This document shows, in pieces, positions 18,138 to 36,397 of a stretch of DNA of 47,922 nucleotides. The DNA is from Candidatus Bipolaricaulota bacterium (GTDB lineage: Bacteria > Bipolaricaulota > Bipolaricaulia > UBA7950 > UBA9294). The translations under genes and the position numbers were made by a program. The stretch lies in NCBI GenBank assembly GCA_030611415.1, contig JAUWPW010000005.1, positions 1-47,922 on the forward strand. Reading direction: 5' to 3'. Under the pieces are notes generated by a model. It was not told where the DNA came from. It did no database searches and saw nothing but the letters and a program-made list of their open reading frames with translations. Every line of letters begins with the position of its first letter. Position 1 is the stretch's first letter.

Positions 18138-19286
18138 GTGAAAGTAATAGTGATTGGTGCTGGGATGATGGCACGGGCAATTACCTTTAACCTAACTCAG
18201 CGAGAGGAGATTGATGAAATCTGTCTTGTCGATCGGGAAGTAAAAAGAGCCGAGCAGATTGCGGACTGGTTATCAGATAAGAGGGTGGTTCCTATGCGGT
18301 TAGATGTAACTGCCCCTCGTGCTGTACGTGAAGCAATGCAGGGATGTGTAGCTGCAGTTAGTGCCGTGCCCTATTTTCTTAATCTCTCACTTGCGCAAGC
18401 AGCCGTGGCTAGCGGTACTCATTTCTGCGATCTTGGAGGGGACAAGCGCATAGTAAAAAAGGAATTTGCCCTTGATGAGCAGGCAAAACAAGCAAGAGTA
18501 ACAGTAATTCCTGATTGCGGTCTTGCTCCGGGCTTGGTTAATATCCTTACTGCTGGGGCAATTGCCGAACTTACAGATGTAGAGGTGGTCAAGATCCGAG
18601 TAGGTGGGCTTCCTCAACGCCCGCACCCACCCCTTGAGTACCAGATTGTATCCTCTCCTCATGGCTTGATTAACGAATACATGGAGCAAGCGACTATTAT
18701 CCACGATGGAAAAGCTGTCAAGGTGTCATCTTTGACAGAGCCGGAAGAGATTTCGTTCCCCGGGTATGAATGTCTGGAAGCATTTCACACCTCAGGAGGT
18801 ACTTCCACTTTGCCGCAAACTATGCTTGGTCGAGTGGCTAACCTGGATTACAAAACGATTCGTTATCCAGGGCATCTTGAAAAGATAAGTGCAATGGCAA
18901 CGCTTGGTTTCTTTGGTACAACGCCACGGCTGGTAGGCAAAGTTGAGGTAAGCCCACGAGAATTAGCGGTACAGCTGTTGAGTGAGAATCTTTCATTTGA
19001 TGAGCCGGATGTTGTGCTGTTGCGCGTGACGGCAAACGGAAAAATAGATGGCCAAGCAGTAGAAGTGTGCTACCAGATAATTGATCACTTCGATGAGAAG
19101 ACCGGGCTTTCTGCTATGATGCGTACAACCGGTTTTTCCGCGGCTCAGGTTGTTTTTATGCTTGCGAGCGGATGGATCAAAGAATATGGGGCGCTTACAC
19201 AAGAGACTTGTGTACCGCACGAGGAATTTATTGCCGGATTACGCAGATTTGGTATAGAGGTTAAACGTACGGTCACCAGGCAATGA
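18138..19286 (+). CDS. Saccharopine dehydrogenase family protein, lysine 6-dehydrogenase-like
   Basis: The 382-residue protein opens with a Rossmann NAD(P) site (VIVIGAGMMARAITFNL) and has AVSAVPYFLNLSLAQAA and HFCDLGGDKRIVKK. It then has IPDCGLAPGLVNIL, a stretch typical of the L-lysine 6-dehydrogenase/saccharopine-dehydrogenase-like group. Members oxidise the epsilon-amino group of lysine or reduce related semialdehydes; the substrate here is not proven. The GTG at 18138 follows GGAGG with good spacing, so the track's TTG at 18135 is not used. The stop overlaps the next gene as ATGA. No lysine-catabolism partner genes are adjacent, so the physiological role is open. Confidence 0.75.
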   Translation: MKVIVIGAGMMARAITFNLTQREEIDEICLVDREVKRAEQIADWLSDKRVVPMRLDVTAPRAVREAMQGCVAAVSAVPYFLNLSLAQAAVASGTHFCDLGGDKRIVKKEFALDEQAKQARVTVIPDCGLAPGLVNILTAGAIAELTDVEVVKIRVGGLPQRPHPPLEYQIVSSPHGLINEYMEQATIIHDGKAVKVSSLTEPEEISFPGYECLEAFHTSGGTSTLPQTMLGRVANLDYKTIRYPGHLEKISAMATLGFFGTTPRLVGKVEVSPRELAVQLLSENLSFDEPDVVLLRVTANGKIDGQAVEVCYQIIDHFDEKTGLSAMMRTTGFSAAQVVFMLASGWIKEYGALTQETCVPHEEFIAGLRRFGIEVKRTVTRQ

Positions 19287-29450: not shown

Positions 29451-29477
29451 GAAGAGCCGCCTTTGGGGCGGCTCTTC
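29451..29477. terminator. Hairpin terminator between the PKD operon and the REase-like gene
   Basis: GAAGAGCCGCC and GGCGGCTCTTC form a perfect 11-bp, GC-rich stem with a 5-nt loop. It starts 8 bp beyond the stop of the minus-strand PKD gene, so it should end the sigma-factor operon. The T-run is better on the plus side (CTTTTCCC) than on the minus side (TATC), so it may act in both directions or be only a partial intrinsic terminator. Confidence 0.75.
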
Positions 29478-29484
29478 CTTTTCC

Positions 29485-31320
29485 CTAATAACCTTCGAGA
29501 TCCTCTATTTGTCCACTCCAATTAATCCAGAAACTTCTCACTGGCCCACTCACGTTGTAAATAAACGGAATCCCTAGCCAAAAATTCGTGCTTGGGACAA
29601 GTGGCCCAGAATTCTTTTTGCGCAATCCAACTACGAACGGAAGAGTAGGTGGGTGAACCATGAGATTGCGCATATACACAAGGTTTGATGATTGTTCCAG
29701 GATGCCGTCTCCATCAATGTCAAGCCGCAGATTCATCCAAATGCTGTCTGAGCCAGAGGTTTCAAATGTGTAGTCGATGCTTTCCATTTGGAGGGTCCCT
29801 TGGAGCAGAAGCTTTCTCCCGTTATCAGTCAGGTTAGGTATGATGTTCATGAGCCTGATTCCTTCGCTTGTAGATTGGCTTACGTTTTGGAATGAGCCAT
29901 CAGTTTGCAGCTCTAACCTATACTCATGCGCACCTAGCCACCCCACCCCAGGATTGACAGTTATGTGCCAGGTGTTGGTTCCCCATACGAATATTCCAGG
30001 GATGTTGTTCATTGGAGGGGCTCCAGGGATGCTATATCCGCCAACAACCATGATCCCTTGCGTTTGAGTTGATGATAAACCAGTGTTATCAATTACAGTC
30101 AGGAGAATCAGGTGCATCCCCGGGTTGTAGTAGCGCACATAAGCTATCTGGCCACTTGCGTCTGTGATCCCGTCTCCGTCCAGGTCCCATTGATAGGAAG
30201 CAATGTAGCCATCAGGATCATAGGAACTGGTAGCGTTTAAGGCTATCCGTTCCCCGATTCCTGGATAGGTGGGAGAATAGCTAAATGTCGCGACTGGTAT
30301 GTGATTTGCGTACGCGATCTGAATAGTATGGGAGCTAGCACTGGTCAAGCCTTTATCGTCGGTAACCGTCAATGTCACAGTGTACGTTCCTCCGGCGGCA
30401 AACGAGTGCGAATCCCAGGGATAGTTCCTTGTAATCATAGGAGTGCCATCACCGTAGTTCCATGTGTAAGCCGTGATACTTCCATCAGGATCATAGGAAG
30501 TCGTTGCGTTAAATGTAACAGGATCTGCCATTAGTGGTTCAGCGGGCGAATAGCTAAATGCCGCGACTGGCACCTGATTCGTGGGAGCGATTGGTTCAAG
30601 TCTAGCAGTGATATTCCGAGTACGTCCGCTGATAACGAATATCCCGCGTGTCCAAACACGGTAACCAGTTTTGTTAAGCACAATCTTGTAGTAGTTCTGT
30701 GTGAGGCGGATAGTGCATGGAGTCTGGCCGAGATAGTTGCCGTTAGCAGTAATCCATGCGCTGCTTGGGACCGAATCAATGATTAGAGTCCCATGTGAGA
30801 CAGGTACCGCGGAGACGATATTGAAGCTTGTGGAATTCCAGCTTCGTTGGCTGACAGGTATGACTCCTAAGATGTTGTTCTGGATCCTGAGCCTGAACGC
30901 TTCAGCATCCTCTGTCATGAAAGAGAAGGGGTTCACCGGTGTTGTGGTCGCAAGAATCTGCAGATACTCGGTTCCCAGAGGGGGGCCGACAGTCCACCTG
31001 CCTGGGACTGTATATTCTCCCGGAGCAACATAGTTCTGCCACCCCGCTGAGGAGCTTGGGAAGATCTGGTGAGCGGTGCCATCGGGTTCAATATCCCAGA
31101 TGTATATGTATGCATGCTTGTCAATGTCGTAGTGAATAGAGATTGGTTCACCTACAGTGTAAACACTCTTGTCAACCCAAATCCGTACTATCAAGCCTTG
31201 GCTTTCAGGCGGAGTAGGAATGATTCCCTTTGGGGTTGTTCTCTGTGGAAGGCCAATTACAGAGAAAAGTATAGCTACAAGCACGATTACCAATGCTGAT
31301 CCGACCAATTTCTTGTCCAT
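29485..31320 (-). CDS. Surface protein: signal anchor, DUF4384, PEGA and two PKD domains
   Basis: The 611-residue protein starts with a signal peptide or membrane anchor (LVGSALVIVLVAILFSVIGL). Residues about 40-150 match DUF4384 (DKSVYTVGEPISIHYDIDKHAYIYIWDI), residues about 175-240 a PEGA domain (GTLIIDSVPSSAWITANGNYLGQTPCTIRL). Residues 243-335 and 336-425 are two PKD domains with YDPDGSITAYTWNYGDG and YDPDGYIASYQWDLDGDG. The C-terminal 180 residues are unassigned beta-rich sequence. It is likely exported and exposed on the cell surface or in the periplasm; DUF4384 proteins are often S-layer or envelope associated. The ATG at 31320 follows AAAGGAGG. It is the last gene of the ECF sigma operon and is followed by a terminator hairpin, suggesting it is a main output of that system. 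Confidence 0.8.
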   Translation of the reverse strand: MDKKLVGSALVIVLVAILFSVIGLPQRTTPKGIIPTPPESQGLIVRIWVDKSVYTVGEPISIHYDIDKHAYIYIWDIEPDGTAHQIFPSSSAGWQNYVAPGEYTVPGRWTVGPPLGTEYLQILATTTPVNPFSFMTEDAEAFRLRIQNNILGVIPVSQRSWNSTSFNIVSAVPVSHGTLIIDSVPSSAWITANGNYLGQTPCTIRLTQNYYKIVLNKTGYRVWTRGIFVISGRTRNITARLEPIAPTNQVPVAAFSYSPAEPLMADPVTFNATTSYDPDGSITAYTWNYGDGTPMITRNYPWDSHSFAAGGTYTVTLTVTDDKGLTSASSHTIQIAYANHIPVATFSYSPTYPGIGERIALNATSSYDPDGYIASYQWDLDGDGITDASGQIAYVRYYNPGMHLILLTVIDNTGLSSTQTQGIMVVGGYSIPGAPPMNNIPGIFVWGTNTWHITVNPGVGWLGAHEYRLELQTDGSFQNVSQSTSEGIRLMNIIPNLTDNGRKLLLQGTLQMESIDYTFETSGSDSIWMNLRLDIDGDGILEQSSNLVYMRNLMVHPPTLPFVVGLRKKNSGPLVPSTNFWLGIPFIYNVSGPVRSFWINWSGQIEDLEGY

Positions 31321-31330
31321 CTTTCCTCCT

Positions 31331-32038
31331 TTATTGCAGTTGTTGACTGAGAACATTCGACAGGATACGTGTTAGGCTTTCCGGTTTAATCCGTTCGAGA
31401 ACCAACTCCACGTCTTCCGCAGGAATAATAGCATTCCGTTCTAACATCGACAAGCGAGTGTGCATTTCTTGGTAGACCAGGTAACCTTCAAGTGGGCTTC
31501 TTCCGGATTCTTGGTAATTGGCAAGTGTGTCAGCGATTTGGGTGACAAGAAAGTCAAATCGAGGAAGCGGCAGGACTAAGCAGTTCTCCTGACCATATTC
31601 CGAGCTAGTGAATATCAAGTTTGTATATAGTAGATCCCTTACTTCGGCAAGCAGGCTGGCGCGCTCGGAGACCATTTGCTTGATTGCTTGCAAGGAAACC
31701 TTGCGAGCTAGACCTTCTTCAACCTTGCCTATGAGCATAGTGACCGGCAGGGAGTCATCCTTGAGTGCACGGGCGATCGTGATAAGGATTGTTTCTTTGT
31801 CCTCTCTTTCCCCATTGTAGGCGGCAAGATTGCTCAGTAGGGAAACCACTTCATCTGGGGCTAGTCGCCCTTGTAAGAAGCCGGTTTCAATTGCGCTCAT
31901 GATTTCAGTAGTGGACCGTAACCCTAATGATTGCAGTTCTTCCTTAACATCAATGGAAGTAGTTTCTGCAAGGGTGATTTGTGTTGGAACGATCATCAGC
32001 AAGCAAGCCACAAATGCTAGGAATGCCAATTCTTTCAT
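31331..32038 (-). CDS. Secreted helical protein of unknown function
   Basis: I do not recognise a family. The 235-residue protein has a clear signal peptide (KELAFLAFVACLLMIVPTQITLA, cleavage near residue 24). The mature part is predominantly alpha-helical by its heptad-like pattern (EIMSAIETGFLQGRLAPDEVVSLLSNLA, KPESLTRILSNVLSQQL) and has one cysteine. It overlaps the preceding membrane CBM48 gene by 4 bp and ends 10 bp before the PKD gene, so it belongs to the same operon. It could be a periplasmic partner of the CBM48 protein, but nothing in the sequence shows this directly. Confidence 0.65.
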   Translation of the reverse strand: MKELAFLAFVACLLMIVPTQITLAETTSIDVKEELQSLGLRSTTEIMSAIETGFLQGRLAPDEVVSLLSNLAAYNGEREDKETILITIARALKDDSLPVTMLIGKVEEGLARKVSLQAIKQMVSERASLLAEVRDLLYTNLIFTSSEYGQENCLVLPLPRFDFLVTQIADTLANYQESGRSPLEGYLVYQEMHTRLSMLERNAIIPAEDVELVLERIKPESLTRILSNVLSQQLQ

Positions 32039-32631
32039 ATCTTATCACCAGCGTAACCCACGTAGCGCACAGAGTTGTATCCTCCAAAGCTGCGTACGTA
32101 CTCGTCGGCAAGAGGATCTTGTCCCCACCAGCGGCCGTCAACGACAAATGCGTACTCGTATCGCCCCGGAGGAAGAGAAAGGTTTGTTAACCAGATACCA
32201 TCCTTATCTTCGTCGGTTAGTAGGATTGGTTTCCAATTGTTGAAGCTTCCGACCACGGCAACGGTCTGTGCTCCTGGCGCAGGCATCACAAACAGGAGTT
32301 GTCCCTCATCAGAGTTGGTGGCTATCGTAGCTTTTTGTTGCTTGTCATATACAGAGAACAGTCCGCGAACCAAGGGGACGCGCTCAGAGACGAAGATTCC
32401 CAGGAATAGGAAGATCACAGCCGTTATTCCGATTACAGTTAGTTGCCTACGGCGAGATCTTTGCATCTGTGCAAACAGCTGCGTGAGTGTTTGCAACCAG
32501 CCTCTTTTGGGAAGCTGCCCGGTCAGTTCGGCGACGATCTTCTTCTCCAAACCATCAAGGTAGTGCCTTTCTTTACTGACCTCTTGTTGTAGAGTATCCC
32601 TTAATAGCTTCTCTAATTTATCCTCATGCAT
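32035..32631 (-). CDS. Single-pass membrane protein with extracytoplasmic CBM48/AMPK-like domain; candidate anti-sigma factor
   Basis: The 198-residue protein has a short helical, charged N-terminus (LEKLLRDTLQQEVSKERHYLDGLEKKIV) and a membrane helix near residues 64-82 (TVIGITAVIFLFLGIFVSE). Residues about 112-190 are an early-set CBM48/AMPK-type glycogen-binding domain (VAVVGSFNNWKPILL, GIWLTNLSLPPGRYEYAFVVDGRWW). It overlaps the ECF sigma gene by 8 bp, the usual anti-sigma position, and the topology (small cytoplasmic domain, one helix, outside sensor) also fits. No zinc-type HxxxCxxC anti-sigma motif is present, so the anti-sigma role is inference. The sensor domain would be expected to bind alpha-glucan or a related carbohydrate. 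Confidence 0.72.
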   Translation of the reverse strand: MHEDKLEKLLRDTLQQEVSKERHYLDGLEKKIVAELTGQLPKRGWLQTLTQLFAQMQRSRRRQLTVIGITAVIFLFLGIFVSERVPLVRGLFSVYDKQQKATIATNSDEGQLLFVMPAPGAQTVAVVGSFNNWKPILLTDEDKDGIWLTNLSLPPGRYEYAFVVDGRWWGQDPLADEYVRSFGGYNSVRYVGYAGDKI

Positions 32632-33178
32632 GGTTAATCACCTCCATTTCTCCAATCTCTTGTCTTAACAAAGCTTTCCCTCGATAGATGTGTGTTTTTA
32701 CCGTTCCTTCTGGAAGAGATAGTATTCTAGCGATCTGATGATACGAAAGATCATTGTAGTAGCGCAGGGTGATCGGTGTTCGATAGCGGTAAGGTAGACG
32801 AGAGAGCCCTTGTCTGATCTGCGCCTGACGGTCTTCCTGTGCAATTGTCGTTGCAGGGTTGCATCCACCCTCCATTTGAGCGGGGAGTGGGGCAATCGGA
32901 TGGTGCCGTCTGTAGCGTAAGCGGTTTCGACATAGATTGGAGGCAATGGTGAAAATCCATGTGGAAAACCGTTTCTCCACGCGGTAACGGTAAAGGTTTT
33001 CGTAAGCACGGATAAATGTATCATGGCTGATATCTTCGGCATCGGCATGGTTTCGCAGAAATCCCAAACATAAACCAAAGACCGCTTCCTTATAGCGATT
33101 GACGATCTCCCCCCATGCCTCAACTTCGCCGTCGAGTGATGCTCTCAATAGGCTCGCCTCATCTTGAACGTGATACAC
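32624..33178 (-). CDS. ECF-type RNA polymerase sigma factor
   Basis: The protein (184 residues from the GTG at 33178) has region 2 with KEAVFGLCLGFLRNHADAEDISHDTFIRAYENL, where the HADAED stretch and DTF contact the -10, RFSTWIFTIASNLCRNRLR, and region 4 with LPYRYRTPITLRYYNDLSYHQIARILSLPEGTVKTHIYRGKALLRQ, the helix-turn-helix that reads the -35. Regions 1 and 3 are absent as in RpoE-like factors. The upstream GTG at 33211 has no ribosome-binding site; AAGGAGGA stands 11 nt before the GTG at 33178. The next gene overlaps it and encodes the candidate anti-sigma. A GAAACTTT...TATATT promoter just upstream could be self-recognised. Confidence 0.92.
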   Translation of the reverse strand: MYHVQDEASLLRASLDGEVEAWGEIVNRYKEAVFGLCLGFLRNHADAEDISHDTFIRAYENLYRYRVEKRFSTWIFTIASNLCRNRLRYRRHHPIAPLPAQMEGGCNPATTIAQEDRQAQIRQGLSRLPYRYRTPITLRYYNDLSYHQIARILSLPEGTVKTHIYRGKALLRQEIGEMEVINHA

Positions 33179-33202
33179 GCTTGATTCTTCCTCCTTGCTT
33201 CC

Positions 33203-33232
33203 AATATACACCTTGTTGAAGGAAAAAGTTTC
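33203..33232 (-). promoter_or_regulatory. Candidate ECF-type promoter upstream of the sigma operon
   Basis: On the minus strand GAAACTTT (33225-33232) resembles the GGAACTTT-type -35 of ECF factors, followed after 16 bp by TATATT. The position upstream of the sigma gene would allow autoregulation. The -10 does not match the usual CGTC, so the element could equally be an ordinary promoter. Confidence 0.3.
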
Positions 33233-33641: not shown

Positions 33642-34580
33642 TCAGTTCCTTGCCCTGACAATACTACTGAGCCGCTGAGTTGCCCTGCTCAGTTCTGTCA
33701 TAAGCGAACCAGTCCCTTGATAGCTAAGGGAGATCATGTAGCTATCAGGTAGGGCGTAGTGAAGGAGGTAAGCAAAGTCTAGCTGCAGGTTCTCCCAGTG
33801 AAATGAGAAGCCCAGGCTGCTCCAGTCTCTGTTGGTACCTACACGGAAGACAAACGGCTTACATCCAGTGTACTCACAACCCATTCGTACACAGGCGATC
33901 TCATCACGGGTGATAAGGTTCTCAGTGAAATCAATACAGTAGGTGGTATCCTTATGTTGGTAAGATAGCCCTACAGCAATATCACGAATCCAGGGCTCGG
34001 TATGACCATGTGCATAATAGGTCCCCATGCTTAATGCATTACGCCATATGATTCCTGATGTGAGTGCTCCCTGTTGATAGAGGATAGAAGGACTCAGCGC
34101 AACACCGGAGGCGTTAGTGGGGGAGAACAGCCTGTAGCCCTTTACCTGTAGACCACAGGAAAGGTTGCTGTCTATGCGTTTCCCGAAGCCGAACAGAAGA
34201 CCGCTGCTTGTATACCTGAAGCTGCCTATGACGTTACCATAGAGATCGCGTTCCTCTAGAGTATCTGAGTCAAGGACTAACAGGTAGGTTCCCCAACCAT
34301 GCTCGGATACACCCACCGCTCCGTATGAATAGGCACCAAATGGTCTTACATAAAGGGAAGAAAACCTTGTCTTGGAAAGGGAGGCAAGCCCGGCGGGATT
34401 GTAGAAGATAGCAGCCTCATCATCGGCAACTCCGATGAATGCTCCCCCAAGACCGATCGTTCTTGCCGATACCCCAAGCTCAAAGATGGAGGCAGTGCTG
34501 ATATATGTATCACCGGCTATGGTAGGCACTACTATTAGCACGCAGATGATTAATACAACAGTTATCACTAGCTGTCGCAT
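33642..34580 (-). CDS. UPF0164/PorV-like outer-membrane beta-barrel protein
   Basis: The 312-residue protein has a signal peptide (LVITVVLIICVLIVVPTIAG) followed by FELGVSARTIGLGGAFIGVADDEAAIFYNPAGLASL, the characteristic opening of UPF0164/PorV/PorQ-type outer-membrane proteins. The rest is alternating amphipathic beta strands with aromatic girdles, as in a 14-strand FadL-like barrel. In Bacteroidota, PorV shuttles type IX secretion cargo; UPF0164 members in other phyla have unknown roles. It starts 17 bp after the lamin-tail/PKD gene behind AGGAGAGGTG, so the two form one transcript. That partner's FlgD-Ig-like tail makes an export-related role plausible. Confidence 0.78.
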   Translation of the reverse strand: MRQLVITVVLIICVLIVVPTIAGDTYISTASIFELGVSARTIGLGGAFIGVADDEAAIFYNPAGLASLSKTRFSSLYVRPFGAYSYGAVGVSEHGWGTYLLVLDSDTLEERDLYGNVIGSFRYTSSGLLFGFGKRIDSNLSCGLQVKGYRLFSPTNASGVALSPSILYQQGALTSGIIWRNALSMGTYYAHGHTEPWIRDIAVGLSYQHKDTTYCIDFTENLITRDEIACVRMGCEYTGCKPFVFRVGTNRDWSSLGFSFHWENLQLDFAYLLHYALPDSYMISLSYQGTGSLMTELSRATQRLSSIVRARN

Positions 34581-34597
34581 TACATCACCTCTCCTTT

Positions 34598-36397
34598 CTA
34601 TCGGTCGATCACCATCTTCTGCACCGGGGAATAAGTGGTGGTTCCATCCGTGTGCTTGATTTCCACAAGATAGAGGTACAGTCCGGTTCCGAGTAGCCTT
34701 CCCTTCTCATCCTGTGGTAGCCATCGACCTGTTTGTGGATAACGGCCGGCAGTTGGGTCAAGGCAGATGTCTGGAAGCGCTGCTCCATCAATGTCGAAGA
34801 TCTTAAGGGTTGCATCTAGAGTGTCATTCGGCAGGTTAAGCCAGAAGATGCAACCTTCGGATGGGACAGGGTTGGGGCCATAGGTTATTAGTTCAACACC
34901 TAGAAGGATATTGTTGATTGTGAAAGGGTTGCTCACTCCTTCAGCCGTGAGGCCACCTGGATCTTCTATCAGGACTCTGATCTTGTACTCTCCATTAACC
35001 ACCTTGGTAGTGTCCCAGCCGTAGGTACCATCGTTTTCCGTATCTGTTGCGATCGTGTTCCAGGTGATCCCGCTATCATCAGAGTAGCTAAGCGTTATCT
35101 TTAAGCTATCTTTGCAGTCATCAGGATCGGTTCCGTCCCATTTTATCTCCTCTGTCCCCTTCCATATCTCTCTGCCGGCAGGGGTCTTTAGTTCGATCTC
35201 TGGACCAAGACTTGCTACAGTTACATGCTTGGAAGTGCTATTGGTTGCACCATCGTCATCGGTCACGGTTAAGGTAACAGTGTAAGCGTTATTGTCAGAA
35301 TAGCTGTGAGCCAGCTTCTGGCCTGTTCCTGTTGAGCTATCACCGAAGTCCCATTTGTATTTCTCAATTGAACCATCGGGATCGGAAGAACCAGAGGCAT
35401 TAAAGTTTACGATTTCGTTAGTCTCTGGCTCGGAAGGGCTGTAATCAAAGCTGGCGATAGGGGCCTGGTTAGAAATTGTAACACTATGGGAAGTGCTATC
35501 TGTTGCGCCAACGTCATCAGTTACTTTTAATGTGACGGTGTAGGCTCCGTCATCTGTATACTGGTGAGTAGGGTTCTGTGTTGTTGAGCTGCCCCCATCG
35601 CCAAAGCTCCATTGCCAGGAGGAGATGGAACCATCTGGATCGTTTGATTCATTGGTGAACTGAACTGTCTGTTGGGTTGGAGGACTTAACGGGGAGTAGG
35701 TGAATGCGGCAGTTGGTGGTGAGTTTGTGGCTGAGTTTGTGGCTGAGTTCTTTGACTTGGGCGTGCCATTGATTGGAGATTGGCTAGCGTCAAGTCCGTT
35801 TCTTGCTACGTCGGGGTCATTTGTTACCCAGTTAGCTTCTTCTACGCCAGCTGCATTAGGGTCAATTCGTTCCATGGTTGTTCTATCTGTGCTGTTGCCC
35901 GCAAACCAGCCTCCAGTAGGTTGGTTTACCCTGTCGATTTCGGTGCCCGCGCAGTTTTGGGCATCGTAGAGAACTACTTGGCCCGGAGATGAGTTAATCA
36001 TGCTTATAGTTGCATCCCAGATATCAACATTCGTTTCCATTTCAGAGTTATTAACATCGTCTTCATGACTCGCGTAGATTAGGTAACCATAAGAAGGGAC
36101 AACCCAGCTTCTGTTTCCATCAGCATCTGTAAAATTCAGACAATCTTTGCTATCCGCTCCATGAATGGACCAATCCTTGATGTTGATTGGGGTATTCGTA
36201 TTGTTAGCTAACTCGATCCATTCGTCTCCCGAGCTTGCTTCCGTCCCCATCCAGGCAATTTCATTGATTACAACGTCTCCAGGAGAGGCGGGTAAGCCTT
36301 GAAGAACAGAGCCGAAAACCATGCAAAGAATAGCAACGCAAAATCGCAAGTTTACTTGCCATGCTCTATTCTTAAAGGGGACTTTCTCCTTTACCAT
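34598..36397 (-). CDS. Secreted lamin-tail/PKD protein with FlgD-Ig/T9SS-like C-terminal domain
   Basis: The 599-residue protein has a signal peptide (LRFCVAILCMVFGSVLQGLPA) and then a lamin-tail domain (residues about 38-160: GDVVINEIAWMGTEASSGDEWIEL). Two PKD domains follow (about 225-310 and 315-395, each with DPDGSI and W-FGD), then an Ig-like segment. The last 85 residues read like a FlgD-Ig or type IX sorting tail (YGPNPVPSEGCIFWLNLP, LKIFDIDGA, LLGTGLYLYLVEI, ending PVQKMVIDR). It is presumably exported and displayed outside the cell; lamin-tail and PKD domains often mediate adhesion or bind polymers. The ATG at 36397 follows GGGAGAG. It is the first gene of a pair with the PorV-like barrel protein. 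Confidence 0.8.
   Translation of the reverse strand: MVKEKVPFKNRAWQVNLRFCVAILCMVFGSVLQGLPASPGDVVINEIAWMGTEASSGDEWIELANNTNTPINIKDWSIHGADSKDCLNFTDADGNRSWVVPSYGYLIYASHEDDVNNSEMETNVDIWDATISMINSSPGQVVLYDAQNCAGTEIDRVNQPTGGWFAGNSTDRTTMERIDPNAAGVEEANWVTNDPDVARNGLDASQSPINGTPKSKNSATNSATNSPPTAAFTYSPLSPPTQQTVQFTNESNDPDGSISSWQWSFGDGGSSTTQNPTHQYTDDGAYTVTLKVTDDVGATDSTSHSVTISNQAPIASFDYSPSEPETNEIVNFNASGSSDPDGSIEKYKWDFGDSSTGTGQKLAHSYSDNNAYTVTLTVTDDDGATNSTSKHVTVASLGPEIELKTPAGREIWKGTEEIKWDGTDPDDCKDSLKITLSYSDDSGITWNTIATDTENDGTYGWDTTKVVNGEYKIRVLIEDPGGLTAEGVSNPFTINNILLGVELITYGPNPVPSEGCIFWLNLPNDTLDATLKIFDIDGAALPDICLDPTAGRYPQTGRWLPQDEKGRLLGTGLYLYLVEIKHTDGTTTYSPVQKMVIDR

Follow-up and report, generated by a model that had tools for sequence, protein, structure and literature searches.

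Within the analysed window (the whole stretch of DNA, 47,922 nucleotides), which is part of a 1.33-Mb MAG of Candidatus Bipolaricaulota that is 93% complete, four minus-strand genes lie head to tail. They encode an ECF sigma factor, a membrane protein with a CBM48 domain, a secreted helical protein, and a DUF4384-PEGA-PKD-PKD protein. The sigma and CBM48 genes overlap by 8 bp and the CBM48 and helical genes by 4 bp. With ATG 31320 as the start of the PKD gene, which is preceded by the ribosome site AAAGGAGG, the helical and PKD genes are 10 bp apart (alternative start, 31356). The preliminary description had proposed a four-gene operon; its open reading frames, order, strand, and spacing were all confirmed. 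Its domain calls were also recovered by Pfam, which gave sigma-70 regions 2 and 4, AMPK1_CBM, CBM_48, DUF4384, PEGA, and two PKD domains. The features are as follows.

33205 to 33232, minus strand: putative ECF-type autoregulatory promoter GAAACTTTTTCCTTCAACAAGGTGTATA (-35 GAAAC, 16-nt spacer, GTGTATA), a conserved motif upstream of sigma
32624 to 33178, minus strand: ECF sigma factor, 184 aa, GTG start (Pfam region 2, 2.7e-16; region 4_2, 2.6e-16)
32035 to 32631, minus strand: proposed anti-sigma factor of 198 aa, a one-pass membrane protein whose AMPK-type CBM48 is extracytoplasmic
32452 to 32631, minus strand: N-terminal helices on the cytoplasmic side (residues 1-60), the part proposed to bind sigma (conserved residues, motif)
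32386 to 32442, minus strand: single transmembrane helix, about residues 64-82, with basic residues on its N side
32050 to 32304, minus strand: CBM48/AMPK-beta-type domain, residues 110-194 (Foldseek match to the AMPK beta CBM; W133, W168)
31331 to 32038, minus strand: secreted protein of 235 aa from a new family, all-helical, with a signal peptide
29485 to 31320, minus strand: secreted or anchored DUF4384-PEGA-PKD-PKD protein, 611 aa (Pfam)
29451 to 29477, no strand assigned: 12-pair hairpin, possible terminator, 8 nt past the last gene, T tail on the plus strand

A hairpin terminator had been placed behind the operon. The hairpin and its 12 pairs were confirmed; since its T-rich tail lies on the plus strand, termination of the minus-strand operon at this site is only likely. 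Upstream of the operon, on the same strand (33642-36397), are genes for a secreted lamin-tail-domain/PKD protein and for a protein that resembles OmpP1/FadL by a weak Pfam match. In many relatives, a PKD-profile ORF is found on the opposite strand.

The sigma gene most likely starts at GTG 33178, as judged from the ribosome site AAGGAGGA and a start shared with relatives, and the GAAAC...TGTATA promoter at 33205-33232 is therefore intergenic. The product has sigma-70 regions 2 and 4 only (Pfam) in about 180 aa, as in ECF sigma factors. Its best NCBIfam match was SigW (6e-40), which stayed below the curated cut-off: the SigW models TIGR02948 and NF007223 scored 137 against 209 and 119.8 against 243.1 bits, respectively. 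No second ECF was found in the window genome; the further PF08281 matches there were response regulators and a small protein resembling a DNA-binding regulator. Relatives of this genome carry additional ECFs.

Conservation of the unit across the phylum

Conservation was investigated in 80 loci and the window, drawn from 100 Bipolaricaulota genomes. The membrane-protein profile matched 90 of these genomes; about 87 matches were to the sensor itself, and three were weak matches to other CBM48-like proteins. The sigma gene directly preceded the CBM48 gene in every locus with a long enough contig (one locus, L130, was truncated by the contig end), and the sigma stop mostly overlapped the CBM48 start by 4-17 bp. 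An apparent 105-nt gap between the two genes in locus L083 was a start-site miscall. The helical gene adjoined the CBM48 gene on its downstream side in 79 of 81 loci, and a PKD-profile gene followed the helical gene in 68 of the 75 loci with room for one. Five of the seven exceptions belonged to a single divergent family, f3. The 13 genomes that lack the sensor lack the cognate sigma as well; apart from a 55-residue fragment in genome G045, only other ECFs, about 30% identical, were found in them. Genome G018 contained two copies of the whole sigma/CBM48/helical unit (contigs C117 and C64; loci L081 and L085), each with its own promoter.

From this adjacency and co-absence, the sigma/CBM48 pair behaves as one unit. 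The pairing put forward in the preliminary description was thus conserved in other genomes, coupled in about 80 loci, and its neighbours do not vary freely. Since the operon layout is kept across the phylum, the arrangement is not due to chance. These genome comparisons indicate that the sigma factor, the CBM48 membrane protein, and the secreted helical protein are a coupled unit across the phylum.

The membrane protein and its helical neighbour

One strong membrane helix was predicted in all 81 homologues, usually beginning near residue 60, and its N side was the more positive in 75 of the 81, which places the CBM outside. The extracytoplasmic CBM assumed at the outset was thus supported by topology, and a cytoplasmic one was not predicted. 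The N-terminal part carried the motif LxxLLRDTL..EV...L.GLEERIV with conserved L14, L28, E29, and R60. In locus L139 (G096:C21), this helix-pair motif was duplicated in tandem, which suggests that the N-terminal part is a functional module. Class I anti-sigma domains (ASDIs) consist of a three-helix bundle and a further, fourth helix that touches sigma2/sigma4. For the membrane protein, AlphaFold gave N-terminal helices at residues 4-37 and 45-54 with low confidence, mostly at or below 55 pLDDT, and was confident in the CBM only.

In line with the preliminary description, no known anti-sigma domain was detected by Pfam in 16 members. Pfam likewise gave no RsgI_N match in the membrane protein, a PDB relative of the N-terminus was not found, and the zinc motif Hx3Cx2C occurred in none of the 81 homologues. 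Non-zinc ASDIs exist, and the missing ASDI sequence or zinc motif is therefore not decisive. Anti-sigma classes diverge extremely, with RseA and CnrY sharing about 3% identity (PMC7406223), so that missing similarity is weak evidence against an anti-sigma role. We also computed covariation between sigma and the membrane protein (MI with APC, 80 pairs, effective 40). The highest-scoring pairs lay in the external CBM, which is unable to touch sigma; this signal therefore reflects shared descent and was discarded. We consider it very likely that the membrane protein is the anti-sigma factor.

The CBM matched AMPK1_CBM (1e-10) and CBM_48 (4e-6) in Pfam, with a profile score above the cut-off. Foldseek aligned it with the AMPK beta CBM (1z0m/4yef) over about 59 residues with a core rmsd of 1.0-1.4 A. 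W133 and W168, at the ring- and glucan-stacking positions, were conserved in 78 of 80 members (Tyr in the other two) and in 68 of 80, respectively; W168 was lost in some distant clades. Residue 161, the position of the glycogen-contact lysine of AMPK (K126-equivalent), is alanine here and in most members. At the sequence level, two of the three compared glucan-contact positions are kept. The domain thus resembles the glycogen-binding domain of the AMPK beta subunit in fold and tryptophans, whereas AMPK beta is a cytosolic kinase subunit with lysine at the third contact position. The CBM was also more conserved than the remainder of the membrane protein. An alpha-glucan or related sugar is a possible ligand, at somewhat less than even chance.

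A plasmid search for relatives in other phyla returned mainly small glycogen-operon proteins of Pseudoalteromonas, found in a different context, and these were set aside. Thermotoga maritima also gave an AMPK1_CBM match. Within family f4, four relatives (L266, L267, L268, and L269) are secreted and about 690 aa long; they contain several CBM48-like repeats, and their C-terminus ends like an outer-membrane barrel. Some of their genes adjoin glycan-enzyme or sugar-transporter-like genes, and a SusE/F-like starch-binding outer-membrane protein is possible.

The third protein of the operon had no Pfam family. Its signal peptide contains an invariant A24, its model was all-helical with a pLDDT of 86, and a fold search against the PDB gave no match at E<=0.001. 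The constant position of its gene suggests that, like co-regulators of the RseB type, it may partner the sensor in the periplasm.

Promoter and predicted regulon

The strict motif GAAAC-N16/17-TGTATA was present upstream of sigma in 55 of 80 relatives, where shuffled sequences would give 0.035, and occurred almost nowhere else in the same loci. Most of the remaining loci had close variants, such as GGAAC...GTGTATATT or GTGTAATATA. The motif is of the GAAC/GAAAC type of ECF promoters, and its place ahead of the sigma gene is consistent with autoregulation. In the 100 genomes, GAAAC-N15-17-GTGTATA gave 115 matches compared with 16 for the reversed control pattern.

We next considered 59 sites apart from the operon, with a site counted as well placed when it lay 15-60 nt ahead of a good start codon. 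Well-placed sites numbered 32 of 59, compared with 4% of positions picked at random in the same loci. All 32 well-placed genes encoded proteins with signal peptides, as judged by a simple hydrophobicity rule, compared with 20% for well-placed random positions. Representatives of the targets were assigned by Pfam to DUF4384, CARDB with CsgG, VIT with VWA, FlgD-type Ig, and a chagasin-type inhibitor; two of the DUF4384 targets were tested in this way and six more look alike. Two further target groups had no Pfam family name. No alpha-glucan enzyme, amylase, transporter, or glycosidase was present among the sampled well-placed targets. Small secreted proteins of about 160-190 aa, many of them Cys-rich, were encoded behind the promoter in many genomes (L187, L189, L202, L203, L208, L218, L219, L228-L231, and L233); one small secreted target scored as FlgD_ig and another had no Pfam family.

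In the window genome, a second target (L234) was a CARDB-CsgG protein on contig C33, with its promoter at 18937-18963, 38 nt before the start; this promoter recurred in a sister species (L235). Another site (C7:8991) had no well-placed gene and is probably a chance match. A search within the genus that allowed two mismatches was not above control (24 sites in this genome and 22 in the control), and we therefore claim no further targets in this genome from it. The predicted regulon is small: each genome has roughly one to three strict sites, and the products are secreted.

The preliminary description had expected promoters of this type ahead of PKD and DUF4384 genes, and separate DUF4384 and secreted-protein genes indeed carry them. 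Its assignment of the PKD protein to the output of the system was likewise supported. These results make it highly likely that the sigma factor controls this GAAAC...GTGTATA promoter set.

Proposed mechanism and comparison with known systems

The best reading, which we regard as likely, is an autoregulated ECF sigma factor with a divergent anti-sigma factor that carries a CBM48 sensor, and a small secretome regulon. The N-terminal helices of the membrane protein would hold sigma at the membrane, while the external CBM48, possibly partnered in the periplasm by the helical protein, would sense an envelope or carbohydrate signal. A signal received by the CBM, by the helical protein, or by both would lead to regulated proteolysis of the membrane protein, and the freed sigma would drive transcription of its own operon and of genes for secreted envelope proteins. 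PrsW-type and M50-type proteases act on RsiW. The window genome encodes both a PrsW-type and an RseP/M50-type protease, although an M50 protease was also present in 14 of 14 control genomes. Release of sigma by proteolysis is somewhat favoured.

As to the signal, the conserved tryptophans speak for a sugar, and the envelope-type regulon and the change from lysine to alanine speak for an envelope cue. The latter two observations, together with the secreted helical protein constantly encoded alongside and the loss of W168 in some distant clades, would also fit a CBM48 fold that has lost sugar binding and now serves the anti-sigma factor as a platform on which proteins such as the helical third protein or mislocalised envelope proteins dock. 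The system would then respond to envelope stress and not to carbohydrate. This account has a substantial chance of being right, a little below even; however, the retention of W133 and W168 in most members is difficult to account for unless a ring-stacking ligand is bound, and the CBM is better conserved than the remaining protein.

A switch for carbohydrate foraging, in which the CBM senses outside starch or glycogen and turns on uptake as RsgI does in cellulosome control, is improbable. RsgI1-6 share the plan of an inside N-terminus, a TM helix, and a C-terminal CBM, and most overlap their sigma genes (PMC4711584), and CBM48-rich secreted proteins occur near glycan-enzyme-like genes in relatives, but the sampled targets included no genes for such uptake. 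Still less probable is that the CBM48 protein is a client or co-regulator, with sigma controlled transcriptionally or by an unlinked regulator. The lack of a detectable anti-sigma domain would agree with this; however, the CBM48 gene is invariably coupled to sigma, its product crosses the membrane once and has a short helical part in the cytoplasm, and anti-sigma classes are known to diverge as far as noted above.

The preferred reading, an anti-sigma factor with a CBM48 sensor, was compared with known systems. The SigW promoter consensus of Bacillus subtilis is TGAAAC-N16-CGTA. The promoter here resembles it, SigW was the best NCBIfam match of the sigma, and the PrsW-type and M50 proteases are encoded as in the SigW-RsiW system; unlike in that system, the sigma falls under the SigW cut-off and its partner has a CBM48 sensor and no zinc motif. 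SigI-RsgI of Clostridium thermocellum also has an autoregulated sigma gene that overlaps the gene for a one-pass anti-sigma factor, a cytoplasmic N-terminus, an outer carbohydrate-binding module, and control of secreted proteins (PMC4711584). However, its promoter (C.....AAA-N13-14-CGWA) differs from GAAAC...TGTATA, its RsgI_N of about 165 aa is absent from the Bipolaricaulota protein, its sensors are CBM3, PA14, GH10, or CBM42, and its output is cellulosome enzymes. In ECF52 (e.g. SCO4117), an ECF is likewise tied to an extracytoplasmic carbohydrate-binding domain, which is fused to the sigma itself and not carried on a separate membrane protein (PMC8999054). The preliminary description called the CBM sensor unusual. 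This is fair for CBM48, of which no report as an anti-sigma factor was found in the open-access literature, but carbohydrate-binding anti-sigma factors as such have been described in RsgI1-6 (PMC4711584). What is new, as far as that literature shows, is the use of a CBM48, an unclassified N-terminus, the constantly associated helical protein, and a promoter and target set that extend across the phylum. A stronger version, in which CBM48 on a new anti-sigma class reads alpha-glucan or an envelope glycan, requires the helical protein as a periplasmic co-regulator, and remodels the Bipolaricaulota secretome phylum-wide, is rather unlikely.

One described member of Bipolaricaulota has bipolar prosthecae and an unclear envelope, possibly a simple diderm one (PMC6092417), and a conserved regulon of secreted envelope proteins is therefore a sensible place to seek envelope control. 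The sigma/CBM48 system probably adjusts which proteins enter the cell envelope and surface. If true, an almost uncultured phylum would gain its first predicted pathway of envelope signalling, for which promoter and targets are mapped, and a glycogen-type domain would join the known external sensors of anti-sigma factors. A new anti-sigma class and a new family of periplasmic partners would also be indicated, and both are testable in a laboratory host.
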